Source: a virus. From it: a stretch of 34,282 bases of DNA. Positions 5,418-32,402 of this stretch are shown here, piece after piece (positions within the stretch are counted from its first letter, which is position 1; every line of letters starts with the position of its first letter). A program made the translations under genes and the position numbers. The notes beneath the pieces were generated by a model. That model did not search any database. It was not told where the DNA came from and was given only the letters and a program-made list of their open reading frames with translations. The stretch lies in IMG/VR virus record IMGVR_UViG_3300032288_004457, positions 1 through 34,282 of that record. The stretch is one strand, 5' to 3'.

Positions 5418-5603
5418 ATGAAATACGCTATGTTACAAATCAAAAAAGAAACCCATGAACTTCTCAAAGAATATTGTGAAGAACACGGGTTTAAAATGGG
5501 TAGTTTAGTTGAAAATTTAATCAAAAAACACATTGGTGTTTCAAAACCTCAATCAGGTGTGTTGAAGGCTGATAAAGTTACGATTAAAAATCAATCTTAC
5601 TAA
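5418..5603 (+). CDS. Small ribbon-helix-helix-like DNA-binding protein, the only rightward gene
   Basis: A 61-residue protein. MLQIKKETHELLKEYCEEHG could form a short strand and first helix, and KMGSLVENLIKKHI a second helix. This strand-helix-helix layout resembles small CopG/Arc-type repressors, which bind DNA as dimers. A basic tail follows. The match is by pattern only; it could be another small helical phage protein. It is the sole plus-strand gene, lying between the recombination nuclease and the tail fibre. Its last 20 bases overlap the 3' end of the SbcD-SbcC gene, tail to tail. Direct and inverted repeats just upstream suggest self-regulation. No Shine-Dalgarno is present; the leader is A-rich. 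Confidence 0.7.
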   Translation: MKYAMLQIKKETHELLKEYCEEHGFKMGSLVENLIKKHIGVSKPQSGVLKADKVTIKNQSY

Positions 5604-8600
5604 ATCCATTTTCTTTTTTTATTTCAATTAATCCATCTACTATATCTCTCATAGCATCTAAGTGGGAAATTACCCAAATAAAATCAAATTGAGTTTTCAG
5701 ATATTGCATCATTCCAAATAAGGATGATAAATTATCACTATCTAATGTACCAAATCCTTCATCAATAACAAGGAAATTAGGACGTGGTAATCCACATATG
5801 TTTATAAGTGCAACTCTTATTGCCAAACCACTAATAAACTTTTCCATACCACTACACATCTCCAAAGCCCACTCCTGGTCTTCGTAAACAATCTTTGCAT
5901 TGATGTTTTTACCATCCACTTCCATTATTACTCCAAAATCTACAACTTGTCCTAAAATGTTATTTACCTCATTTTCAATGACCGGTAAGGCTTTTGAAAT
6001 TAGTTCATATGGAATACCATCTCTCTTTACAGCATCTAAATAATAGGTGTATAATCTGTTCTTTTCTTCTAAATCCTTAACTTCATCCATTTTTGCTTTG
6101 ATGTTGTCTATAAATGATTGTAATTGCGAAATAGAACCATTTACCGATGTTATTTCCTTGCCAATCTTTTTAATATCTGTTTCAATTTTACCTTTCTCTA
6201 TTTCTAATTCTTTAATTTGTTTTTCTAACTCTTTATTGCTTTCAATTGTATCTTCGTTTTCGTAATATTTTTCAATATCTTCTTCAACTTTATCTAATTG
6301 AGCTTCCAATAATTCTTCTCTACTCTCCAAAGTTTTTAACTCGGCTTCTGCCGTTCTTAAAATACCTTTGGCTTGAGAATGTTTACCTGTCAAATCAATC
6401 CACTCATTATATTGTTCTTCCACACCTTCCCATCTATCCAAAGTTTGTTGAATACCTGTTGCATCAATTAATGCATCTTTAACTATTTGTTGTAGTTGTG
6501 GTAATGCTTCTTTTGCTTTCATTGCATCCTTTACGAATTCATTATCACAACAAAATTTACAATTTGGGTCATATTGGTGATTATCTAAATGTTTAATCTT
6601 TTCTTCCGCGGCTTTTAAATAAAGTTTTGCAGTTGAATGTGTTTTTTCTGCTTCAATTAATCTCTTTTGTTCTCTCTGATAATTTGAGTATGCAACTTCT
6701 ATATCAATTCCATCTGATTGTTTCTTTTCTTCGATTGATTGTGAAAGTTCATTAATTTTTCCAGTATAAGTTTCAATATTCTTTTCTTTTGCTTCATATG
6801 AAACTTCTAATGCTTCTAATTTTTCATTTATATCTTTTCTCTTTTCTTCCAAATCGGATAAATTTAAATTAGAGTCAATTGGTGTAAGATTTCTACTTAA
6901 TTCCAATATAACACTATCCAATCCATCTTTATCACCATTTAATTTATTTAGTTGTTTTTCTAATTCTTTTAATTCACTTTTTTTACCTTTAATCTCAATA
7001 CCTTTGTTGGCCAATTCTGTCGTAAAGTCGGTTTTCTTAAAATTTTTGATAAGAACACTTACTTCTTTCGTATCTTCAACTGCTGCATCGAATAACTTAT
7101 CGAAAACATTTAATCCCATAAACTGAGCAAGTAAATCCTTTCTCTCACTTTGAGATTTATCAATGAATAGTGCGTTATTACCTTGCAAACTCAATGCAGT
7201 CAACACAAAATCTTCGTAAGTTCCTACATATTGTTCGATAATTGCATTTGTATCTCTACGCTCGGTTCCGTTTAAGGATGTTCTTTCATCACCATCCATT
7301 CGGTAGAACTCGACATCTACTTTTACATTCTTTCCTTTATTGATTGTCTTTGCAGTTCTTTCAATAAAGTATCTTTCACCATTGATATCAAATTCCAACT
7401 TACAACTGAAATCGGTTTTACGATTATTCATTATGTTTGCTGCTTTGAATGCTCTACTACTCTTATCATAAAGACAAAATGAAATAGAATCAAATAAAGA
7501 TGATTTACCTGATGCATTTGGTGCAAATAATCCCATCAAACCATTTAATTTACTGAAATCGATTTTATTATCTTCACCATATGAGAACATATTAGAGAAT
7601 TCAAAACGGATTGGTTTCCATTGAATATTTCTAACCACATCATCTAATACTATTCTACTATTTACATCTCTATTGATTGTTTCCAATTCTGCTAAATCAT
7701 CATCTGTCACAAATGGCATCATTCTTCTCACATAATCATTGATAAGTGAGTTTTGATGGTTTATATCTGTAATATCTTCAAATTCTAATTTGTTTTGTCT
7801 ATTACCTGTTTTTAATTTAGAAAGAGAATCTGTTCTAATAAGAGTAAAATCTTCAATACCGTATCTCATTTTAATTTCCGTTAATACTTTCTTTGTATCT
7901 GCGGTATCGGTATTGGATAAACGAACTCTCAATCTTGCATTCTTCGGCATATTGTTTACAACTGGTACATTACCATTATCAACATCTAAAGTATAGTATC
8001 CAAAATCGTTTTGAATATCCACTGGTTCATATGTCATCGTATCCATATCCCAAACTAAGAAACCATGCTTATCTAATGTTTCCCCAAAGTTTTGTTGAAC
8101 CAATGAACCGGCATATACAACCTTACATCCTTTTGGAGAAACCATCTCTTGTCTTTTGTGAATATCACCTAAAAGGGCTAAATCATAACCATCAAATATA
8201 TCGGTTGTAAAGTGTCTGCTACTTACTACATAACCCACATCAGTCATTGAGTTATCAACAGGTCCGTGAAATAATGCAATCTTTGTTTTTGCATCAATAT
8301 CTTCTGCTTTTGGCCAGTTATCTTTATTATCAAAAATAGAATAAACTGCAAATGCAGTATCACCATAATTCCAAACCTGTGTATCTCTCAAATAATGAAA
8401 GTTATCTAAATTTAATGCTTCTACTATTGGAGTCAATACATCTATTCTATCCAAATTATTCATATTACAATCGTGATTACCTGTAATAAGGATTGTAGGT
8501 GCCAATTTAGCACATTCTGTAAATAACCAACTAATTTCTCTAACTAACTCTGGAGACATTTCTAATTTAGCGTGAGCAATATCACCTGCTAAATAAATGA

Positions 8601-8727
8601 TTGCATCATCCGTTCCTCTTTGATGGATTTCTGCAAACATTTTTTCAAATACTTGTCTATACTCTTTGTGTCTTTTTACATTGCGGATATGAACGTCTGC
8701 AATGTGATAAATTTTCTTTAAACTCAT
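5584..8727 (-). CDS. Fused SbcD-SbcC (Mre11-Rad50; T4 gp47-gp46) recombination nuclease
   Basis: One 1047-residue chain carries both subunits of the Mre11/Rad50-type complex, which processes DNA ends for recombination and recombination-dependent replication. The N-terminal metallophosphatase part has HIADVHI (D11, H13), AGDIAH (D49), GNHD (N84, H85), H154 and GDIH (D188, H190). From about 372 the ABC ATPase begins: Walker A APNASGKSS near 402-410, then a Q-loop region near 515. Two long coiled coils flank a zinc-hook CKFC at 723-726. The C-terminal lobe has the CSGMEKF signature near 958, Walker B FLVIDEG near 985-991, a D-loop and an H-loop His near 1022. All catalytic elements look intact. 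T4 and most bacteria use two genes. The ATG overlaps the primase stop as ATGA, implying coupled translation. Confidence 0.95.
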   Translation of the reverse strand: MSLKKIYHIADVHIRNVKRHKEYRQVFEKMFAEIHQRGTDDAIIYLAGDIAHAKLEMSPELVREISWLFTECAKLAPTILITGNHDCNMNNLDRIDVLTPIVEALNLDNFHYLRDTQVWNYGDTAFAVYSIFDNKDNWPKAEDIDAKTKIALFHGPVDNSMTDVGYVVSSRHFTTDIFDGYDLALLGDIHKRQEMVSPKGCKVVYAGSLVQQNFGETLDKHGFLVWDMDTMTYEPVDIQNDFGYYTLDVDNGNVPVVNNMPKNARLRVRLSNTDTADTKKVLTEIKMRYGIEDFTLIRTDSLSKLKTGNRQNKLEFEDITDINHQNSLINDYVRRMMPFVTDDDLAELETINRDVNSRIVLDDVVRNIQWKPIRFEFSNMFSYGEDNKIDFSKLNGLMGLFAPNASGKSSLFDSISFCLYDKSSRAFKAANIMNNRKTDFSCKLEFDINGERYFIERTAKTINKGKNVKVDVEFYRMDGDERTSLNGTERRDTNAIIEQYVGTYEDFVLTALSLQGNNALFIDKSQSERKDLLAQFMGLNVFDKLFDAAVEDTKEVSVLIKNFKKTDFTTELANKGIEIKGKKSELKELEKQLNKLNGDKDGLDSVILELSRNLTPIDSNLNLSDLEEKRKDINEKLEALEVSYEAKEKNIETYTGKINELSQSIEEKKQSDGIDIEVAYSNYQREQKRLIEAEKTHSTAKLYLKAAEEKIKHLDNHQYDPNCKFCCDNEFVKDAMKAKEALPQLQQIVKDALIDATGIQQTLDRWEGVEEQYNEWIDLTGKHSQAKGILRTAEAELKTLESREELLEAQLDKVEEDIEKYYENEDTIESNKELEKQIKELEIEKGKIETDIKKIGKEITSVNGSISQLQSFIDNIKAKMDEVKDLEEKNRLYTYYLDAVKRDGIPYELISKALPVIENEVNNILGQVVDFGVIMEVDGKNINAKIVYEDQEWALEMCSGMEKFISGLAIRVALINICGLPRPNFLVIDEGFGTLDSDNLSSLFGMMQYLKTQFDFIWVISHLDAMRDIVDGLIEIKKENGFSKIDF

Positions 8728-20613: not shown

Positions 20614-21672
20614 TTAAATTATTTCAAAAGTATACTTGTCATCAATTATTGTTGATATACCACTTTCTATAACTTTTAATTTTAATTTATAAGTTCTATT
20701 TTTTGGAATCGTATTTAAATTCATAATAAAGTAATTTGATGTAGAATCACAACTTACTTTTGTATAATTTCCAAATGGTAGTATAATTTCACCTGTAACA
20801 TAATCTTCTAATTGATAATATATGTTTGAAATATATTTTGATTGGTCATATGCAAATGTTGTTCCAAAAGATTTTAAAGGATACATATCTCTACCCTTAA
20901 CTCTAATTTTTACCTTTGTATTTGATGAGTATTCGTTTTTAAGATTTGTAATTACAACCTTATAACCCTCCTCTGCCGAACCCGTTACTGGCGATAAACT
21001 TCCTGTTGAAAAGGAAAAATCATCATATACGATTTCTAATTTAGGTTCATATATTGTATTGGTTTCTTTTGAAAAGAATTTTAATAATCCATAATCCAAA
21101 GTATCCGATTCGGTATTTAAACTATGATGAATTACCAATCCATTATTAGGTAAAGAACCACTTAACCACAAATTTATGATATCAGTTACATCCATTCTAA
21201 TATCATCCGGTTCATTATTAAATGATTGTGATGCCTCACTACCCGTATACCAAGTACCACCCTCAGCATTTGCAGAACCTGTTGTTCCTGATGCAAATAC
21301 GGCAGTTCCTGCTATTACATTATCTTGCCAAGTATCAATTCCGTTTCTATATTTCCAACTTATACCATCCGATGTTACATTATCAAATTTAGTACCAGTT
21401 CCCATTGTCCAACTTTGAGAAACGGCGTTTGCATATATTGTGTATTGAAGTGGTATTTCCTCTGAGTTTGCAGACTTAAGATTTAAGTAAGCTCTCCAAT
21501 CACTTCCTGTTTCTAAATTTGAAACATCGAACTTGATGAAACTTCGTGCTATGTCTTTTGAAGAACCATAATAAAGTTTACCTACTTCTAATATCTCATC
21601 TCTACCAGCATTTTGTTCTGGTTGTTGTAGATATACACTTGCGTCATATGATGATGTATAAAATATATGCAT
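20614..21672 (-). CDS. DNRLRE-like beta-sandwich structural protein (352 aa)
   Basis: The first 225 residues look like a DNRLRE-type carbohydrate-binding-module fold. A start with Ser-rich YDASVYL leads to RSFIKFDVSNL, then QSWTMGTGTKFD, DGISWKYRNG, GGTWYTG and MDVTDIINLWLSGSLPNNGL, a pattern typical of this fold. The C-terminal third, from SFSTGSLSPVTGS, is a separate beta domain. It could display a sugar-binding surface on the baseplate or bind other tail parts. Its ATG overlaps the gp6 stop by one base (TAATG), so translation is likely coupled. The fold assignment is by pattern only. Confidence 0.75.
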   Translation of the reverse strand: MHIFYTSSYDASVYLQQPEQNAGRDEILEVGKLYYGSSKDIARSFIKFDVSNLETGSDWRAYLNLKSANSEEIPLQYTIYANAVSQSWTMGTGTKFDNVTSDGISWKYRNGIDTWQDNVIAGTAVFASGTTGSANAEGGTWYTGSEASQSFNNEPDDIRMDVTDIINLWLSGSLPNNGLVIHHSLNTESDTLDYGLLKFFSKETNTIYEPKLEIVYDDFSFSTGSLSPVTGSAEEGYKVVITNLKNEYSSNTKVKIRVKGRDMYPLKSFGTTFAYDQSKYISNIYYQLEDYVTGEIILPFGNYTKVSCDSTSNYFIMNLNTIPKNRTYKLKLKVIESGISTIIDDKYTFEII

Positions 21673-23687
21673 TATATTGCCCTCCCTTTAATGTCTTTAT
21701 TTGGATATTTAACTTCGAATATTGATGGGTCTAAAGAAGGATAGACAATCTTACCTTTAGTTGCTGCATCTATATTGTATCTATTTGGTGAATAATTACC
21801 ATCACCACCACATAAGTTTGAAATCTTAACCGATGGTACACTCATTACTCCTTCTACATTTGCTAATATTAATTCTATTTCTGAAATGTTTATTGGTTTG
21901 TTGAATGTCCAATTATCTATATTAAAATAGGTTTGTAATTCGGTTACACAATTAGTAAGAACTTCTCTTTTATTGTAATTTGAATAAACGGATATTTCAA
22001 AATCAACTCCAATATTTACAATAAATCCATCTATAATATTAACACCATCTGTCAACATTCTATATTCACCCAAATATGTTTTAAGATTTTGTTTTACAGT
22101 TTTATTTAATATTGTCAAATTTTTATTAATATCATATCCTAAAAGATACATATTAATTGCAAATGGATTATTAACTTCTGATATTGATGTTTTCTTTTGA
22201 GTAAGATATTTAACCAATTCTTTTTGAATATCTTGCTTTGAACTTCCTTTTAAATTATCTACTAAATTTGTAAATTCTGCAATATTTTGTGGAGAGGATA
22301 AAATAGAAGAAGGTGAATTGTTATCTATCTCACCATCAGGACTTACATATACTTTAGCAACACTACCATATCGTTCTGGCATACTTAATGCTCTAACCAT
22401 ATAATCTTGTCTAGTCACTGCTCTATTTTGTGAACCAAACATTGCCAATGCATTTTGTCTAATTTCTTCTATTGTTTCTGCACCTCTTCCACCCACAGCT
22501 GATTCTAAATTTTCAATACCAACCGATTGTTTATATATTGCATAGTTTGATAAATCTGCCGTTGCGATTAAATCTTCTTCAAATTCTATTTTAGATATAG
22601 AAACTAAATCACTCTGATTTACATTTGAAGATACTCCACCACCAATTAAATACTTTATAGTTAAAATCTTTCCATTAGGTGCAATACCCATCGTATTTGT
22701 TTTTAAAAAGTTAGATGGGTCTATACCTTGATTTAATCTTTGTATTGAATTTGCTAATCCCAATCCAACATTTTTTGGATTTGGTATTAATGTTTCATCA
22801 TTTCCATTAAATGTTCCATTACCAAATTGTAAATCCATTGTATTATCAGAATTTACTTTTATTGAAAACCTTCTTGGAACTTTTTGAACTTCTAAAATAT
22901 ATGGTACATCTGCAGATATATCCGATGAATTATTATTTATTAATGTATTTGGTTGTTCTACAAATATTGTTTCTTGTGCCAAATATGGTACTTCATAATA
23001 AATGCTATTATCTTCATCTACAACACTTAATATTTCAATAATATTAGTATCATTTAAAGTTATAGTTGGATAATCGGTAGAATCGGAAACGGTTATTGTG
23101 GTTGTAACTTCTTTTGCAGATATCGCTTGAACTGTTTTTGTTATTAAGTATTGTTCAGGAATTCCTGTTGTTGTGTTTCTTGAAAATACATCAATTTCTC
23201 TACTGCTTGAATTTGAAAAATCAATATTATCAATTGTAGTGAATGTAATAGATGAGTTTTCCGTTGAGGCAACCTCCAATCCAGCTTTTATTTTTAAAAA
23301 ATATCTATCATCCGGTCTGTTTAATGAACCACTTCCTACCGATGGAACCAATTGATAAACCGTCAATGTAGTAACTGCAGGAGTTGTTACCTTTGGTTTA
23401 TATCCCATAGATTGTGCCAATGCAATCACATTTTTCCTTTCCGTTGCATTTGTCAACATAGATTCTTTCAATTGAACATCTTGGTAGAAAGATAACATAT
23501 CACCAATTGCAGCAGCCTGCTCTAAAAAAACCATTCCAGGGGATGCATCATTAAAATCAGAATATTGATTTGGAAAATATGTTTTCGTAAAATCAATAAG
23601 ATTTTGCTTTAATGCATCGAAATCTTTTCCTAGATAATTTACACTTTTTGCATTACCCCAATTTTTATTTATAGATTTTATTGCCAT
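21672..23687 (-). CDS. Baseplate wedge subunit, gp6-like (baseplate J family)
   Basis: A 671-residue protein matching T4 gp6, the wedge protein that forms the continuous ring of the baseplate and moves during contraction. The N-terminal signature is clear: YFPNQYSDFNDASPGMVFLE followed by AAAIGDMLSFYQD (residues about 37-70), then a helix with NATERKNVIALAQSMGYKPK. RQDYMVRALSMPERYGSVAK near 425-445 is another conserved baseplate-J-like segment. The length is close to T4 gp6 (660). It lies nine bases after the gp25-like gene and shares a TAATG junction with the DNRLRE-like gene. No SD is present; the leader is A/T-rich. Confidence 0.95.
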   Translation of the reverse strand: MAIKSINKNWGNAKSVNYLGKDFDALKQNLIDFTKTYFPNQYSDFNDASPGMVFLEQAAAIGDMLSFYQDVQLKESMLTNATERKNVIALAQSMGYKPKVTTPAVTTLTVYQLVPSVGSGSLNRPDDRYFLKIKAGLEVASTENSSITFTTIDNIDFSNSSSREIDVFSRNTTTGIPEQYLITKTVQAISAKEVTTTITVSDSTDYPTITLNDTNIIEILSVVDEDNSIYYEVPYLAQETIFVEQPNTLINNNSSDISADVPYILEVQKVPRRFSIKVNSDNTMDLQFGNGTFNGNDETLIPNPKNVGLGLANSIQRLNQGIDPSNFLKTNTMGIAPNGKILTIKYLIGGGVSSNVNQSDLVSISKIEFEEDLIATADLSNYAIYKQSVGIENLESAVGGRGAETIEEIRQNALAMFGSQNRAVTRQDYMVRALSMPERYGSVAKVYVSPDGEIDNNSPSSILSSPQNIAEFTNLVDNLKGSSKQDIQKELVKYLTQKKTSISEVNNPFAINMYLLGYDINKNLTILNKTVKQNLKTYLGEYRMLTDGVNIIDGFIVNIGVDFEISVYSNYNKREVLTNCVTELQTYFNIDNWTFNKPINISEIELILANVEGVMSVPSVKISNLCGGDGNYSPNRYNIDAATKGKIVYPSLDPSIFEVKYPNKDIKGRAI

Positions 23688-23696
23688 ATATTTTTA

Positions 23697-24134
23697 TTAA
23701 TTTTTAATATCCAAAGTTAAATTATCCGTTAGTGATGTGTTTGATTTTAATGCGAATTTAACATCTAAAATTATTTTATTAGTATCGATATCATTTTCAT
23801 CATAATCAAAAATAATTTGTTGAATTTCTAAATAAGGAAGCCACATATTTACAGCATCTAAAATACTACTTTCAATTTTTGTATTTATTGTTTCATTTAT
23901 AATTGGTTCAAATAAGATATCCCAAATATCACATCCAAAAGTTGGGTTTAATTCTCTTTCACCTTTTCTGGTCATAATTAAATTGATAAGATTATCTTTA
24001 GCTTGTTTTAGTGTTGTATAATTAACTGCAAAAATACCATTAGAATCGTTTGTTTTATTTATTCCGATTCCAACTATTTTGTAATCATTTTCCGCTAAAT
24101 CAGCTACATTAATTTTACCTAATTCTATTGCCAT
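23697..24134 (-). CDS. Baseplate wedge subunit, gp25-like
   Basis: A 145-residue protein of the gp25/GpW family, a small wedge protein that joins gp6 and primes sheath assembly in T4. The diagnostic region is LIMTRKGERELNPTFGCDIW followed by DILFEP (about residues 53-78), with helices on either side and a C-terminal strand pair typical of the fold. The length is close to T4 gp25 (132). Its neighbour gp6 is its known structural partner. It is coupled to the 171-aa gene through a TAATG overlap. Confidence 0.92.
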   Translation of the reverse strand: MAIELGKINVADLAENDYKIVGIGINKTNDSNGIFAVNYTTLKQAKDNLINLIMTRKGERELNPTFGCDIWDILFEPIINETINTKIESSILDAVNMWLPYLEIQQIIFDYDENDIDTNKIILDVKFALKSNTSLTDNLTLDIKN

Positions 24135-26140: not shown

Positions 26141-27367
26141 TTACTTACTTAAAAATGTTCTACTAGATTGTATTTTACCTAATCTTTTCTTAATTGATGT
26201 AAAAATTGCTGCATTGTGAGGACCAGGTCCCGTAGGTCCTACTCCTGTTGCAAATACCATTTTATTAATTGCATCTAACATTTCTTCCATCAATGCAATT
26301 AACTCACCAGCTAAAACCGCTCTTTGTACATCCTGCCCTGCTTTTCCATTTGTTTTTTTAACCTCACCCAACCAAATGTTTCCGGTCCCATCCGTTGATA
26401 AAACAATATTTCGTTTTGTTTGGAAAATTATGTTATTATCGGAATGAATATGTGAATCACCAATTGAATCAACACTAAATTTGCCATCTGTAATTATACC
26501 TGTATTACCTTTACCAAATATAATAAATTCTTTTGCCTTTGCAGATAAAACTATTCTATCTGAATTTATAAATAATTGGTCACCTGTAAAATTCGATGAA
26601 TTTGGATAATTACTAAATCCTATCTTTTGTTTTTTAATAGTTTCTTTGAAAGGAATTTTTATCTTACCGGAGGTAATATAAACGGAAGTTCCATCCTTAT
26701 TAATATCTTCGGTTACTAGCTCCCCAATCGGTTTGGAATCTAATTCAGGATTTTGTTTATTACGAATGAATATTCCAGGAGATGAAGTTTTATCATCTTC
26801 TGTTAAAAAGAATTCACTAAAACGTATTGTATTACCAACTCTACCACTTATTATAGTATCACCATCTTTTGGTTGTAAAAATTTTATTTTTTCATTTTTT
26901 TTATAAGATGATTTTTGAGAATCCGATTTTGATGGTTTTGAATTGGGTGTTCCATCCTTTGCCGATTTATAATCGGAATTTTTATTTGATGTACTCAATT
27001 GAACGGCATCTCTCTCCGTATTTAATATTGATATACTTGCATTTTCTCTATAATTTGGATATAAAGATATACTATATGGCAACCAATAGTTTATATCGGA
27101 TATTTTTAAAATTAATATAGTTTCACCTATTATTGGGTATGTTATATTGTTTTTATCAAATGGAAATGCAATATTTTCACCCTTGAATATTACTTTATTA
27201 GATTTAAATTTTACTGCACCTAAATATTCTATATTATTTAAAGATTCTATATAATCTTTATTATCATTATATTTAGGAATTAAATTACTATTAATATCAA
27301 TTTTTTTATCATCAGGTAAATTGGTATATATTTGCTCTACTGTTGCTAAAAATGAATATATTTCCAT
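26141..27367 (-). CDS. Baseplate hub/spike-like protein (408 aa)
   Basis: A beta-rich protein probably forming the central membrane-piercing spike or its adaptor. Residues 1-130 could be an OB-like fold (KVIFKGENIAFPF and YPIIGETILILKI). A charged linker with SDSQKSSYKKNEK follows. The segment from about 270 to 335 has beta-prism features typical of gp5/VgrG-type spikes: LFINSDRIVLSAKAKEFIIF, then SHIHSDNNIIFQTKRNIVLS and GNIWLGE. The C-terminal 60 residues are helical and basic. Unlike T4 gp5, I see no lysozyme domain. It shares a TAATG overlap with the 135-aa gene and ends one base before the Pro-rich gene. The fold is inferred from pattern and location next to gp25 and gp6. Confidence 0.7.
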   Translation of the reverse strand: MEIYSFLATVEQIYTNLPDDKKIDINSNLIPKYNDNKDYIESLNNIEYLGAVKFKSNKVIFKGENIAFPFDKNNITYPIIGETILILKISDINYWLPYSISLYPNYRENASISILNTERDAVQLSTSNKNSDYKSAKDGTPNSKPSKSDSQKSSYKKNEKIKFLQPKDGDTIISGRVGNTIRFSEFFLTEDDKTSSPGIFIRNKQNPELDSKPIGELVTEDINKDGTSVYITSGKIKIPFKETIKKQKIGFSNYPNSSNFTGDQLFINSDRIVLSAKAKEFIIFGKGNTGIITDGKFSVDSIGDSHIHSDNNIIFQTKRNIVLSTDGTGNIWLGEVKKTNGKAGQDVQRAVLAGELIALMEEMLDAINKMVFATGVGPTGPGPHNAAIFTSIKKRLGKIQSSRTFLSK

Positions 27368-27774
27368 TATTTTACTTTGGTTTTAATTTCTTCAATTTCT
27401 ATTTCTAAATCAACCATTTTTTCTTTAGCTTTTTCTTCTACCGCATTTATAGTATCTTCCATATCCTGTAATAATTGTGCTTTTTCGTTTTCACTTAACC
27501 AACCATCTTCACCAATACCTTTAGCTTCAGCTGCTGCTAATCTTTGTGCAATTGTTGCAAGTTTAATTAAATGGTCATCGTTTTTAACTGATACTTCAAT
27601 TAAATCTTTTATAATAGGTGCAATAACAGTTGCTTCACCAACATTTTTAATTAATTTACGAAGTGATTCAATCAAATCGGAAATGTTTTTCTTTTTGTTT
27701 TGTTGGTTTTCGTATATATCCTTAAATAATGATGATAAATTTTTACCATCAAATAGTTGAAATTCAGCACTCAT
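27367..27774 (-). CDS. Small helical protein (135 aa) at the start of the baseplate block
   Basis: An almost fully helical, charged protein. It has LFKDIYENQQNKKKNISDLI, then an Ala-rich helix RLAAAEAKGIGEDGWL, then a C-terminal coiled coil with NAVEEKAKEKMVDLEIEIEE. No family recognised. It could be a tail-assembly chaperone, a hub-associated protein or a regulator. It overlaps the SGNH-like gene by 11 bases and the spike-like gene by one base (TAATG), so it links the accessory block to the baseplate block in one transcript. Confidence 0.7.
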   Translation of the reverse strand: MSAEFQLFDGKNLSSLFKDIYENQQNKKKNISDLIESLRKLIKNVGEATVIAPIIKDLIEVSVKNDDHLIKLATIAQRLAAAEAKGIGEDGWLSENEKAQLLQDMEDTINAVEEKAKEKMVDLEIEIEEIKTKVK

Positions 27775-28546
27775 AGAGTTTATTCTTTACTATATAATTA
27801 TAAAGTTCTTCAGTTATTAGTTTATAACCATTATCATTTGGGTGTTGTGCAACTTTCATTGGGTTTGGTTTTTTAATCTCCCAAACATTATCATTTTTGT
27901 AATATTTCATCATCCATGCTTCTAAAGATATTTCTCCAAATCCCCAATAATTCTTTTTATTAATTAAATTTGTAACATCATCTTTTTTATCCAATTGTTG
28001 AACCATCAAATCAAATGCATCACACATCAGATATTTAATTCCATATTCGTTTAACATTTTTTGTAAAAATACGATATAGTTTTGATTTATTATATTGTAA
28101 TAATTTTGATTAAACAATTCTAGTAAAAAGAATTTTTTATAATCTGATAAAAAGTTATTAAATTTTTCATCACCAAATTGATAAGAATCGGTAAATTTAT
28201 GTGGTAATATAGATAATTCCATTTGCCCCCAACTTATCCACTCACCTTTTGGTAAAAACGGAACATAATCTCTTAAAGATGAACTCCACATTATAACAAC
28301 AAAATCTCCTTTTTTAATTTTATCATTTCGTAAATCGTTAATAACATCATTAAAAATCATATTATTGGCTCTACCACTCCAGCCATTATTAACCGGTTCT
28401 AACCCCATTTTTTTGGAAAGGTGTTTTACCCAACTATTTTCATTTCTAAATAATTGTAATTGCTGTCTATCTTTAATAGTTTGTTCATGTGTCCAATTTG
28501 CACCTTCACCTTCTGTCCAACTATCTCCGTATGCGTATAATTTCAT
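27764..28546 (-). CDS. SGNH/GDSL-like hydrolase (260 aa), catalytic set incomplete
   Basis: The N-terminus has the GDSW block (residues 7-10, Ser9 as likely nucleophile), followed by WVKHLSKKMGLEPVNNGWSG with the Gly block, and a C-terminal block VAQHPNDNGYKLI with His235. This matches the overall SGNH fold, whose members remove acetyl or other acyl groups from sugars and peptides. Two features weaken a standard esterase: block III reads VIMWSSSLRD without the usual GxND, and the position three before the His is Val, not Asp. It may therefore be a variant with altered chemistry or a binding protein. It starts three bases after the carbamoyltransferase stop, which suggests both act on the same glycan or nucleotide. 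No signal peptide is seen. Confidence 0.75.
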   Translation of the reverse strand: MKLYAYGDSWTEGEGANWTHEQTIKDRQQLQLFRNENSWVKHLSKKMGLEPVNNGWSGRANNMIFNDVINDLRNDKIKKGDFVVIMWSSSLRDYVPFLPKGEWISWGQMELSILPHKFTDSYQFGDEKFNNFLSDYKKFFLLELFNQNYYNIINQNYIVFLQKMLNEYGIKYLMCDAFDLMVQQLDKKDDVTNLINKKNYWGFGEISLEAWMMKYYKNDNVWEIKKPNPMKVAQHPNDNGYKLITEELYNYIVKNKLYEC

Positions 28547-28549
28547 AAC

Positions 28550-30250
28550 TTATTTGCTAATTAAATAATTTCCCAATACTAAATAATTCATATCACAATT
28601 TTCAAATGTCCAGATTGCTTTTTGTGGGTTATTTGTCATTGTGTGGTCTTTTAAATTAAATGATGTATTCAATAAAATTGGTGTTCCTGTTATCTTTTCA
28701 AATTCTTTTAACAAATCATAATATAATGGATTTTGTTCTCTTTTTACTGTCTGTATTCTTGCTGAGTTATCAACGTGCGTTACCGATGGTATAGGTGTTT
28801 CGGAAATAACTTCAACAACTTGATTCATATATGGAACATCTTCTTCTGATTTGAAATATTTTTGATAATCTTCATGTGTTACAGATGGGGCAAATGGCCT
28901 GAACATTTCTCTCTTTTTGACAACCTTATTGATTCTATCTCTAATATCAGGCAAATGTGGATTGCCCAATATAGAACGATTACCTAATGCTCTTGCACCA
29001 AATTCCGTTTTAGCTTGAAACCATCCTACTATATTACCTTCTTTTATCAATCCTGCAACTTTTTTAACCAATTCATCATCATACAAATATTCAACTTTTG
29101 TATCTTCGGAAAAATGGTCATGTATAATTTCATATAATTCAGTTGTATTCCACTCTGGTCCTAAATATGGTGATTGATTATCTCCACCTTTTACTTTTGG
29201 ATGTCCTAATGTTTGGTGGTAATGATATAAACATGCACCTATTGCAGAACCGGCATCCGATGGTGCAAATGGAATCCAAACATTTTTAATTGATGTAAAT
29301 TTTTTGATTTTACCATTGGCTGTTCCATTATATGCACACCCACCCCCTAATACTAAATTCTCACTTGACCAATTGTTTGATACTCTGTTTATTATAAAAT
29401 ATAATTGACTTTCATACCATTGTTGTAAAGAAGCTGCTAAATCTTTATGATGTTGTTCTATTGGTTCATCTTTAAATCTAGGAGGAAATCCAATCAATTT
29501 CATCAACTTATAACTAAACATATCGTTTTCTGAAATTTGATATGTAAAATATTTTTGATTTATATTCACCAATTCACCCAACCAATCAAATGTAGATATT
29601 TTTTCAAATACATTTTTATATTTCAAATCAGTACCATATGGTGCTAACCCCATTACCTTATACTCCCCCTCATTTGGTTTGAATCCTAAATAAGCAGTAA
29701 ATGCGGAATAAACTAATCCTAATGAATTTGGAAAAGTTAATTTATTTATTGTCTGAAATTTATTATCTCTAACATAACAAGCCAACATAGTTTCATCTTC
29801 ACCAACACCATCTATTGATAAACCTATTGCATTATCAAATGGGGATGTATAATATGAAAAAGCCAAGTGAGATAAATGATGTTTGGTATTTACAATAATA
29901 CCAACATATCCAATTGATTTTAATATATTTTTTAAACCACCTTCGGTTTGGTGCCATCTTTTATTAAATTCTCTCCATTTTTTTGGATATCGTTTACCTC
30001 CCCACTTTCCAATTATTCTTTTAACTCTTTCATATTTTAAATTCGGGTCTTCATACCAACAAACCATATCGATTTCATCGATTGTAATTTGTGCATAGTT
30101 TAAAACCCATTGGATTGCCTTAAACGGAAAAGAACTATCATGTTTTTCACCAGATAGTTTTTCTTCTTCGATAGCTGCGATTACTTTACCATCAATAATC
30201 AGTGCAGCAGCTGCATCGTGATAAAATGCGGATAAACCTAATTGTATCAT
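28550..30250 (-). CDS. NodU/TobZ-type O-carbamoyltransferase (566 aa)
   Basis: Enzymes of this family move a carbamoyl group from carbamoyl phosphate, through carbamoyl-AMP, to a hydroxyl group. The N-terminal Kae1-like part has FYHDAAAALI (H11, D12), AIEEEKLSGEKHD, the metal-binding HHLSH (124-128) and LSIDGVGED (144-152). NLVLGGGCAYNGTANGKI marks the ATP-binding region. The C-terminal part has TEFGARALGNRSIL near 415-430, the family motif (usually GPRALG), and MFRPFAPSV. Length and all main motifs suggest an active enzyme. Phage members are known; one was reported to carbamoylate 5-hydroxymethylcytosine in phage DNA, while bacterial ones act on sugars and antibiotics. The substrate here cannot be told. 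It lies three bases after the sigma-factor gene and three before the SGNH-like gene. Confidence 0.93.
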   Translation of the reverse strand: MIQLGLSAFYHDAAAALIIDGKVIAAIEEEKLSGEKHDSSFPFKAIQWVLNYAQITIDEIDMVCWYEDPNLKYERVKRIIGKWGGKRYPKKWREFNKRWHQTEGGLKNILKSIGYVGIIVNTKHHLSHLAFSYYTSPFDNAIGLSIDGVGEDETMLACYVRDNKFQTINKLTFPNSLGLVYSAFTAYLGFKPNEGEYKVMGLAPYGTDLKYKNVFEKISTFDWLGELVNINQKYFTYQISENDMFSYKLMKLIGFPPRFKDEPIEQHHKDLAASLQQWYESQLYFIINRVSNNWSSENLVLGGGCAYNGTANGKIKKFTSIKNVWIPFAPSDAGSAIGACLYHYHQTLGHPKVKGGDNQSPYLGPEWNTTELYEIIHDHFSEDTKVEYLYDDELVKKVAGLIKEGNIVGWFQAKTEFGARALGNRSILGNPHLPDIRDRINKVVKKREMFRPFAPSVTHEDYQKYFKSEEDVPYMNQVVEVISETPIPSVTHVDNSARIQTVKREQNPLYYDLLKEFEKITGTPILLNTSFNLKDHTMTNNPQKAIWTFENCDMNYLVLGNYLISK

Positions 30251-30253
30251 ATT

Positions 30254-30946
30254 TTAAATTTTTATATCACCTTCCCTATCAAATTCATTATAAAGTGCCA
30301 TTTGTTTTTCTTTCATTTTATTGACAACTTTAGTTATATAATGGGTTGGGTGCCCTGTCATTTCTCTAATAAGTAGGTATAAAGATTTTTTATTGAAATT
30401 TTCTATATAGTTTGCTCTTCTGAATAATTCTAACACCGCGTCTGCGATTTGCATATCTCTTTTTTTGGGAAAGAAATTTTCTAGATGTGTATCCCAGTAT
30501 TGCAACATTCTTACATTAAACATTCTATGTTCATCATTACGGACTTCTTCTTTAAAATTATTCTCAGTATCCCAACTTTCAGGTAATGCTGACATTATAT
30601 CTGTATCTTTGTATCTTTTATAGTTTGCGTTATTATTTAAAATTAAATAATTTCTTGCAACAATAGTAAAATAACTAAATGCTTTACCTTTACCATTTTT
30701 GTACATATGAATTTTCTCAATCATAAATGCAACAACCTCTGCCATTACATCTTGTGGGTCATCATCAAAATAAGTAAATTTCCATTTATTATAAACAATT
30801 TCTGCTAATTTTTTAAATGCAGAATCAATTCTTTCCCTATACAATTTATCTTTAATATATTGGTCGGTTGTAAGATTATACTCAATGATAGCATCTTCGG
30901 TATCTTTTGTAAAATATTGTCTATTTGGACCTCTTTTTCTAGGCAT
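30254..30946 (-). CDS. Late-transcription sigma factor, gp55-like
   Basis: A 230-residue sigma-70-family protein, probably the phage's late sigma. A basic N-terminus (MPRKRGPNRQYF) leads to a helical region. Residues about 65-125 match region 2: DDDPQDVMAEVVAFMIEKI, then GKAFSYFTIVARNYLILNNN and NYKRYKDT, which in this family melt and recognise the -10 element. The C-terminal part has LYLLIREMTGHPTHYITKVV, like a short helix-turn-helix. T4 gp55 (185 residues) works with the sliding clamp and gp33 and recognises TATAAATA with no -35. Here the likely targets are the ATATTTATAT sites upstream of structural genes. It lies one base after the 80-aa gene. Confidence 0.88.
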   Translation of the reverse strand: MPRKRGPNRQYFTKDTEDAIIEYNLTTDQYIKDKLYRERIDSAFKKLAEIVYNKWKFTYFDDDPQDVMAEVVAFMIEKIHMYKNGKGKAFSYFTIVARNYLILNNNANYKRYKDTDIMSALPESWDTENNFKEEVRNDEHRMFNVRMLQYWDTHLENFFPKKRDMQIADAVLELFRRANYIENFNKKSLYLLIREMTGHPTHYITKVVNKMKEKQMALYNEFDREGDIKI

Positions 30947-31193: not shown

Positions 31194-31829
31194 TTAAACT
31201 ATTTCGTATCCTTGTAAAAAATATTTGTTAGCATGTTTTCCCTTAACTTCTAACAATTCACCATTTGGTGATTTCATAACGATTTTTTCATTTCTACCAT
31301 ACTCTACTTTTTTAACAAATGTTGTAGAATATATCCTATCTCTAATTGTTAACCCATCCAAATGGTCTATTTCATGCTGAACCACAACTGTTTTCATTGT
31401 ATCAACACCTACACCACCGGATTCTTTATCTTGTTCAGGATTTATTTGAAAGATTAATTCACCCAAATTATCGGTTTGAATTTTAACCATACTTGCTCTA
31501 ATAGTTCTAATCGGTTTTTCTACTGACCTTGGTATTGATAAACAACCTTCTACAAAAATAAATCCATCTTTTGACTTTTCAATCATTTGTGGGTTTACTA
31601 AGAATAATTCTTCATCACCAAATTTAATTAAACATGCTCTTTTTTTAATTCCAATTTGAGTTGCCGAAATGCCCAATCCACCATATTTTGCCAAAGCATC
31701 TATAAGTGTTTGTTTTAATTCATCTGCTTCCTGTTGTGTGATTTCTGTTTTTAAACATGGTGTTTTAAGATATTCTTTAAATTCTTTTGTTTCAAACCCA
31801 TGCTTGTCTTTGTCAACGATTAATTTCAT
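31194..31829 (-). CDS. def: Peptide deformylase (211 aa)
   Basis: It removes the formyl group from the first methionine of new proteins in the host cytoplasm. All three family motifs are present: GLGISATQ (51-58), EGCLS (94-98, metal ligand Cys96) and QHEIDH (151-156, His152, Glu153 and His156). The C-terminal 40 residues (from about 170, with VMKSPNGELLEVKGKHANKY) extend beyond the usual bacterial core and look specific to this protein. Phage deformylases are known from marine T4-like phages, where they may speed maturation of short-lived or phage-made proteins. The gene overlaps the DUF2061 gene by four bases (ATGA). Confidence 0.95.
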   Translation of the reverse strand: MKLIVDKDKHGFETKEFKEYLKTPCLKTEITQQEADELKQTLIDALAKYGGLGISATQIGIKKRACLIKFGDEELFLVNPQMIEKSKDGFIFVEGCLSIPRSVEKPIRTIRASMVKIQTDNLGELIFQINPEQDKESGGVGVDTMKTVVVQHEIDHLDGLTIRDRIYSTTFVKKVEYGRNEKIVMKSPNGELLEVKGKHANKYFLQGYEIV

Positions 31830-32041
31830 TTTTCTTTATTTTTAAGTCCATATTTTATCCAATTATACCAAACCCTTTCATGTAAAAAGTAAATTATTGG
31901 TTTTATTATTAATTCCCCCAAACCTACCATTCCTGCCCATTTTATAGGAAGGCCGGCAAATAAGGTAAGAATAATTGTAGTTATAGTTCCAATAAAACGA
32001 TAACTAATACTTTTTACTATATGTCTTTTAACTAACGGCAT
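31826..32041 (-). CDS. DUF2061-like membrane protein (71 aa)
   Basis: The whole protein fits DUF2061: an N-terminal VKRHIVKSISYRFIGTITTI, a first membrane segment to LFAGLPIKWAGM, a second around GLGELIIKPIIYFL and a tail HERVWYNWIKYG. These are the conserved motifs of this small two-helix family of unknown function. In bacteria I recall DUF2061 near or fused to sulfate-activation genes such as adenylylsulfate kinase. Here it overlaps the nucleotidyltransferase by 14 bases and the deformylase by four, so all three are tightly coupled. A role in the membrane with a nucleotide-handling partner is possible but unproven. Confidence 0.88.
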   Translation of the reverse strand: MPLVKRHIVKSISYRFIGTITTIILTLFAGLPIKWAGMVGLGELIIKPIIYFLHERVWYNWIKYGLKNKEK

Positions 32042-32402
32042 ACTCTATAACATCTCCATTTGAATCCATATACCCCTGTCTAATTTTAGTTCCACTAATC
32101 ATTTCGACATCTGTTGGTGGTGCATGGTGTACAACATCATACCCAACACCTCTACCATAGTTTACACTTTCAATATCAGGAATTATACTGATTAAAATTT
32201 TATCCGAATTTTCTATAAAGAATTTTTCTTGAGATAAATCTTTAAGAACTTGTTGTGCCGATTTTGGATTGTTTTCATCAACTTGCACATCTCTAATTGC
32301 TACCCAAACATTTTTTCCTTTGTTTAGTTGTTGATTGATTAACCATTCGTGTCCTGCGTGCCAAGTTTGCCATCTTCCGATGTATAATGCGTATTTTTTC
32401 AT
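32028..32402 (-). CDS. NMNAT/cytidylyltransferase-like nucleotidyltransferase (124 aa)
   Basis: The N-terminal YIGRWQTWHAGHEWLI holds the HxGH motif (15-18), and MISGTKIR (101-108) matches the ISTxxR-type motif that binds the triphosphate. IIPDIESVNYGRGVGYDV lies between. These features mark the nucleotidylyltransferase superfamily that includes NMN adenylyltransferase, ATP sulfurylase and CTP-dependent enzymes. At 124 residues it is shorter than typical NMNAT (about 170-200), though both key motifs are present. The product could be NAD, an activated sulfate or another nucleotide conjugate. It begins two bases after the 57-aa gene and overlaps the DUF2061 gene. Confidence 0.85.
   Translation of the reverse strand: MKKYALYIGRWQTWHAGHEWLINQQLNKGKNVWVAIRDVQVDENNPKSAQQVLKDLSQEKFFIENSDKILISIIPDIESVNYGRGVGYDVVHHAPPTDVEMISGTKIRQGYMDSNGDVIEYAVS

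Follow-up and report, generated by a model that had tools for sequence, protein, structure and literature searches.

A carbamoyltransferase gene and a swappable SGNH-fold gene within a T4-like phage baseplate operon: candidates for sugar decoration

Gene content of the window and the carbamoyltransferase

The window is an IMG/VR virus record of 34,282 bases with 30% G+C. It is a genome fragment in which all substantial genes lie on the minus strand. Two T4-like baseplate genes (gp6-like and gp25-like) share their operon direction with the gene pair studied here, comprising a carbamoyltransferase (CT) gene and a gene for an SGNH-fold protein (Table 1). The original prediction had described these as two genes three bases apart at 27764-30250, and both open reading frames (ORFs) were found exactly so. 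A long tail fibre with an S74 chaperone domain at its C-terminus is also encoded, together with a DnaG-like primase, an endonuclease, SbcCD-like genes, a peptide deformylase and UvdE.

The nearest deposited relatives of the gp6-like protein (approximately 40%) come from Flavobacterium phage Immuto and a phage deposited as Microcystis phage Mel-JY01, so the host of this T4-like phage is perhaps in or near the Bacteroidota. Bacteroidota-type promoters (TTTG-TAnnTTTG) were found three times in the window against 4.2 expected and therefore gave no clue to the host. Sigma-70-like and terminator-like sites occurred at chance level, and tRNA, Rfam and tandem-repeat searches of the window returned nothing. 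The 230-residue neighbour upstream of the CT had no match in Pfam or PHROG; by eye, it may resemble a T4 gp55-like late sigma factor. The 135-residue ORF downstream directly abuts the CT gene in phages that lack the SGNH gene.

Table 1. Positions of the gene pair, its motifs and its neighbours in the window
Feature	Position	Strand	Description and basis
gp6-like baseplate wedge gene	21672-23687	(-)	PHROG 219/10646; operon direction same as the pair
gp25-like baseplate wedge gene	23697-24134	(-)	PHROG 261/43; operon direction same as the pair
135-aa downstream neighbour	27367..27774	(-)	start overlaps the SGNH stop by 11 bases
SGNH-fold protein	27764..28546	(-)	260 aa; weak Pfam GDSL matches, predicted model, 57 distinct sequences
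SGNH block V, H235-P-N	27836..27844	(-)	HPN invariant in 57 sequences
SGNH variant block III, W87-S-S-S-L-R-D93	28268..28288	(-)	replaces GxND; immediately follows beta-strand 82-87 of the model
SGNH block I, G7-D8-S9-W10	28517..28528	(-)	putative nucleophile Ser9; S9, G7 and W10 invariant in 57 sequences
CT-SGNH spacer	28547-28549		3 bases
CT	28550..30250	(-)	566 aa; NodU/TobZ/GdmN family by Pfam, PHROG, PDB relatives and alignment
CT residues W410, G423, R425, K445 and R451	28898..29023	(-)	separate it from DNA-type CTs; alignment
CT HHxxH metal-site motif, residues 124-128 (HHLSH)	29867..29881	(-)	invariant in alignment A2 and all aligned groups
230-aa upstream neighbour	30254..30946	(-)	next to CT by conserved synteny

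The CT was covered over its full length by Carbam_trans_N (PF02543; 6.7e-57) and Carbam_trans_C (PF16861; 1.9e-63), with bit scores of 193.9 and 213.5 that passed the curated cut-offs of 24 and 27, and it matched phrog_1601 ('Nol-like') at 8.5e-121. Its relatives in the PDB are 7xb6, GdmN, NovN and TobZ, with 33-35% identity to GdmN and 7xb6; identity to cellular CTs was 38-41%. All the main motifs reported at the outset were located: the metal- and nucleotide-site motifs comprise HHxxH, D147, D332, R420, R447, R498, NTSFN (528-532) and RALGNRS, and of these HHxxH, D147, D332, RALGNRS, R498 and NTSFN were invariant in the 38-row alignment A2 and in a cross-family alignment. The score against NF041651, the NCBIfam equivalog for the nodulation protein NodU itself, was 137.4 bits, far under its cut-off of 1000, and identity with NodU was rejected. 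By family membership, the CT is classed as a complete two-domain NodU/TobZ-type O-carbamoyltransferase. It is a new member of a known family; the SGNH protein is a new variant. Genes of the CT family are listed as 'auxiliary' in many aquatic phages, and their target has usually been guessed.

Distribution of the pair and conservation of the SGNH-fold protein

Gene order was compared in 133 loci with both flanks, a count that includes contigs fetched by both the CT and the SGNH queries. The order CT-(SGNH)-135-aa ORF-baseplate genes was constant throughout; the SGNH gene was present in 76 loci and absent from 57 (gap mostly 26-53 bases). For CT-query loci alone, it was present in 18/75 and lacking in 57/75, so the CT and the SGNH protein do not need each other, and an obligatory partnership in which one adds and the other removes a group, as first envisaged, is unsupported. 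Presence of the SGNH gene changed at least six times on the CT tree, and most simply 12 times. On the SGNH tree there were at least four switches of context, and SGNH homologues (49-74%) without an adjacent CT lay in sugar clusters or beside sulfotransferase-like or 2OG-oxygenase-like ORFs. Given this constant order, variable SGNH presence and recurrence in other contexts, the CT gene belongs stably to the phage lineage, and the SGNH gene is an accessory that can be swapped.

The AlphaFold model of the SGNH protein (pLDDT 87.5, pTM 0.88) was matched best in the PDB by TesA (Z 13.4, rmsd 2.9, 163 residues). Further solved structures with the same fold were CE2, rhamnogalacturonan acetylesterases and PatB, and 32 viral models matched at E < 0.001, nearly all of them uncharacterised. 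On this model, the protein has a predicted SGNH alpha/beta/alpha fold. Its Pfam matches were weak, with Lipase_GDSL at 21.6 bits falling short of the curated cut-off of 23.6, and sequence and profile searches of the PDB gave nothing apart from a histone match due to chance. The sequence showed no apparent signal peptide or membrane segment. Homologues were absent from the INPHARED collection (tblastn, E 0.01). None was found in cellular genomes with two peptide patterns, an absence that is weak because only these two patterns were used. A literature search of incomplete coverage yielded no phage paper on this SGNH variant.

Fifty-seven distinct SGNH sequences were compared. Ser9, His235, Pro236 and Asn237 were unvarying, and N53, N61 and E223 were also fixed. 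In block III, residues W87, S88, S89, L91, R92 and D93 were identical in every sequence, with Ser or Thr at position 90; the motif is thus WSS[ST]LRD, and the Asn of GxND occurred in none of the 57. The position three residues before His235 was likewise never Asp, being occupied by Pro, Ala, Val or Ile only (Val in the window). Gly58 of block II was present in 53/57 sequences and replaced by Ser in 4/57. The original prediction had correctly described a protein that keeps GDSW (7-10) and a C-terminal His and lacks both the GxND Asn and the Asp at -3. Its phrase 'altered catalytic blocks' holds in that the differences are real; because they are fixed in 57/57 sequences, they are family features and not losses, and the Asp of GDSW is itself Cys in 16/57 (Asp in 41/57). 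The dN/dS ratio of the SGNH gene was 0.05-0.22, indicating purifying selection, and with the invariant residues this ruled out a decayed gene or pseudogene. Dozens of viral contigs show the tight CT/SGNH junction, with 2-17 bases separating the matches; from this recurrence and the dN/dS ratio, the pair is more than a chance association.

Active SGNH enzymes are known without the block III Asn (the SASA family, and BcPatB1 with an Arg in the oxyanion hole) and without the block V Asp (CE2 and NanS) (PMC9487903), so their absence here is no evidence of lost function. The oxyanion donor may be Arg92 or Ser88/89, and D176, D93 or E223 are candidates for the substitute acid. SGNH proteins that seem catalytically broken form a conserved family with a block III of its own; if active, they would build the SGNH oxyanion hole in a new way and offer an entry point to sugar decoration by T4-like phages.

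The same missing Asn and Asp, and the location of the gene among baseplate genes, one of which it overlaps, would also fit a non-catalytic sugar-binding or baseplate protein in which constraint has retained the fold and the Ser and His. We regard this as rather doubtful. Against it stand the invariance of Ser9, His235 and the new block III in 57 sequences and the existence of active enzymes without either residue (PMC9487903). The gene is, moreover, often missing from the site while the baseplate genes stay, and it recurs in metabolic sugar clusters.

Gene context and a sugar target

Window-type CTs joined the CT of locus L228 on the maximum-likelihood (ML) tree (100/99), and this is the nearest phage relative, at 45% identity. 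Its gene sits in a phage sugar cluster with three epimerase-type proteins, a dTDP-sugar 3,5-isomerase and two TPP-enzyme halves; the cluster also holds seven SGNH-like ORFs, one of them of the window's SGNH subfamily. Cultured T4-like phages often show similar surroundings: the second CT of P-SSM2 and the CT of S-CAM3 adjoin genes for a sugar kinase, a phosphoheptose isomerase, an epimerase and tail fibres, and such settings in T4-like phages have previously been described as lipopolysaccharide (LPS) or capsule modification (PMC3037559; PMC7824862). The MetaGPA study found genes such as those for glycosyltransferases on either side of the CTs of unmodified contigs (PMC8670742). The four pair-carrying records larger than 130 kb (G001, G002, G004 and G005) each contain three to four sugar epimerase genes, elsewhere in the record. 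GT2 genes were found in three of the four, distant SGNH paralogues were found as well, and the cluster gene set of G005 is the same in kind as that of L228.

On balance, we favour the reading that the pair decorates sugar. The CT would form carbamoyl-adenylate from carbamoyl phosphate and ATP, an established chemistry of the family seen in TobZ and in a 5-hydroxymethylcytosine (5hmC) enzyme (PMC8670742), and would then transfer the carbamoyl group to a hydroxyl of a sugar within a glycan pathway directed by the phage. The SGNH-fold protein would act in the cytoplasm as an optional accessory, attaching an acyl (ester) group to a glycan of the same kind or taking one off; it would use Ser9 and His235, and its conserved block III of the Ser/Arg type would stand where the Asn is usually found. 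We infer the catalytic activity of both proteins and the shared substrate, as well as the chemistry and a role for Arg92. The sugar target is favoured by gene context and tree position, since a nucleotide-sugar cluster holds the nearest phage CT, further clusters of this type have the SGNH gene but no CT, and all four pair-carrying contigs over 130 kb hold epimerases. The predicted SGNH fold, with its matches to carbohydrate esterases, also speaks for it. Against it, the window pair lies in a baseplate operon and not in a sugar cluster, the window, as a 34-kb fragment, shows no sugar genes of its own, the CT stands without the SGNH gene at most CT-query loci, and some smaller contigs of the CT lineage (G006, G007, G017, G018 and G020) have no epimerase, which may reflect contig truncation. 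Phage DNA, a virion glycan and a host surface sugar had all been proposed as targets. Context supports both sugar targets, whether a glycan of the virion or a modified polysaccharide on the host surface, and they are indistinguishable here, with the baseplate-operon position perhaps leaning to the virion; DNA is disfavoured, as set out below.

Antibiotics are tailored by relatives of the CT, and a survey of jumbo phages suggested that the CT clusters of cyanophages serve to decorate the capsule or concern a secondary metabolite (PMC7824862). The CT, with the SGNH protein when present, could tailor a small secondary metabolite or a host polysaccharide during infection and leave the virion untouched. 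We think this unlikely: no biosynthetic core genes lie near the window pair, which, from its place in the baseplate operon, may be timed to virion assembly.

The block III variant may extend to a wider set of SGNH-like proteins. Nine cluster loci were read, and ORFs of 190-420 residues with an N-terminal GxS motif were taken (31 in total). In 22/31 of these, the block III position had [S/T]xxxR after a hydrophobic strand, against 2/70 other ORFs of the same loci and 1.8% of shuffled segments. Because the pattern was defined after inspecting the sequences, in a small sample with some orthologous ORFs (L357, L359), it is treated as a lead. A profile of the window family found several more distant SGNH copies per large genome, and Pfam and NCBIfam name almost none of these ORFs. 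It is possible, and we suggest it tentatively, that this group of phages has a large SGNH-fold enzyme set not yet described, several per genome, in which the [S/T]xxxR Arg (with Ser) replaces the oxyanion-hole Asn, and that with interchangeable carbamoyl-, sulfo- and sugar transferases it makes up a swappable toolkit for diversifying a phage-made glycan.

Comparison with DNA-acting carbamoyltransferases and other known systems

As the original prediction noted, a metagenomic phage member of the CT family acts on 5hmC, making 5-carbamoyloxymethylcytosine (PMC8670742). The protein sequence of this proven enzyme, taken from that paper, was used as the query for DNA-type relatives, and phage relatives were found in Xp15, four Acinetobacter records and six Bacteroides records. 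Four of these loci were fetched. A thymidylate synthase (TS)-family or deoxycytidylate hydroxymethyltransferase gene is annotated within approximately 2 kb in three (Xp15, BF503P4 and MD-2021a); the fourth, Effie, is unannotated and collinear with MD-2021a. An alignment and ML tree were made from 50 CTs, comprising five of DNA type (the 5hmC enzyme, Xp15, Effie, MD-2021a and BF503P4) and 45 others. The five were split from the 45, which include all window-type CTs, with 100/100 support and a branch length of 3.4; the proposed phylogenetic check thus gave no clustering with the DNA-acting enzyme. The window CT is 21% identical to the proven enzyme, and 21-25% to the enzyme and its phage relatives. 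Arg425, Lys445 and Arg451 are present in the window CT and all 44 others, and are Thr, Asn and Met in the five DNA-type CTs, which also have Val or Ile at the W410 position and Cys or Gly at that of G423. The study authors named W408, G421 and R423 of TobZ as the positions most associated with DNA modification (PMC8670742). The spacing of W410, G423 and R425 in the window equals theirs, a mapping made by spacing alone with TobZ outside the alignment.

A dCMP hydroxymethylase was sought in 22 related viral records of the CT/SGNH lineage (34-326 kb), and none was found; TS-family genes occurred in only two, and each has the Asn (LPFN) typical of true thymidylate synthase. A search for Tet/JBP, run without a positive control, gave no match. 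From the clade split, the absence of the Thr/Asn/Met residues and the absence of a dCMP hydroxymethylase from the related records, it is very improbable that the CT carbamoylates 5hmC in phage DNA with the SGNH protein editing the product, even with a proven 5hmC enzyme in the family. Three residues and one clade now divide DNA-acting from sugar-associated CTs, so that the types can be distinguished by sequence.

With sugar decoration as the favoured reading, the pair can be set beside known systems. The CT resembles the O-carbamoyltransferases NodU, CmcH, TobZ and GdmN in its full-length two-domain architecture, HHxxH, Asp metal ligands, RALGNRS and RFxPFAP-type motifs; it differs in sitting in a phage baseplate operon and in a well-supported phage clade of its own. 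It shares the superfamily and the metal- and nucleotide-site motifs with the 5hmC carbamoyltransferase (PMC8670742) and its relatives in Xp15, Effie, MD-2021a and BF503P4, whereas that group has T/N/M at 425/445/451, nearby TS-family genes and a separate clade. The cyanophage and pelagiphage CTs of P-SSM2, S-CAM3, HTVC008M and Mosig are also from T4-like phages, have R425/K445/R451 in common with it and in several cases lie in a sugar or tail-fibre neighbourhood, but CT identity is 30-33% and no SGNH homologue of the window subfamily accompanies them (tblastn, phage collection). The SGNH protein is similar to SGNH/GDSL carbohydrate esterases and O-acetyltransferases (the TesA fold; CE2, rhamnogalacturonan acetylesterase and PatB) in predicted fold (VIA Z 10.8-13.4), block I Ser, block II Gly58 and block V His. 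In contrast to these enzymes, it has the W-S-S-S/T-L-R-D block III and no Asp three residues before the His; it is approximately 80 residues longer than TesA. It also matches DUF6071 (PF19547) below the cut-off of 27 bits, at 18.0 bits for the window protein and 26.4 bits for a paralogue (L172:5898-6632).

Surroundings of the carbamoyltransferase

A peptide deformylase and an NMN-adenylyltransferase-like ORF keep their position upstream of the carbamoyltransferase in most relatives. In the related viral locus L089, the carbamoyltransferase frame continues into the downstream 135-aa ORF (gap between the two, −15); the two genes are fused there, or the sequence contains an error.

Features described in this section
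Feature	Location	Strand	Note
Peptide deformylase + NMN-adenylyltransferase-like ORF	window 31194-32402	-	upstream of carbamoyltransferase
Extended carbamoyltransferase frame	L089:5001-7022		~674 aa
Window-type SGNH, second copy in G005	L333:1501-2322 = G005:C1:120496-121278
Conserved sugar-cluster family	L228:4580-5854; L051:1621-2874; L069:5735-7000		400-430 aa
SbcD/SbcC-like ORF	window 5584-8727	-	1047 aa; profile matches

Sugar-gene neighbourhoods

The second SGNH copy of G005, a pair-carrying record, lies ~10 kb from its carbamoyltransferase-SGNH pair and is flanked by two sulfotransferase-like ORFs and one 2OG-oxygenase-like ORF. Several distinct SGNH-like ORFs were present in each of five phage sugar clusters (L357, L358, L359, L228 and L209); most of these ORFs lack a Pfam name and have [ST]xxxR as their block III. 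The conserved sugar-cluster family, for which a convincing Pfam name was likewise absent, may be an undescribed glycosyltransferase. Two ORFs adjoining sugar-modifying genes (L061:639-2501 and L333:132-623) contained segments that look like Hint/intein-type or Hedgehog-like sequences.

SbcCD-like ORF

Profile searches matched residues 4-335 of this ORF to an SbcD-like profile and residues 317-1046 to an SbcC-like profile. Because both match one ORF, an SbcCD-type nuclease normally split over two genes looks to be a single fused protein here.
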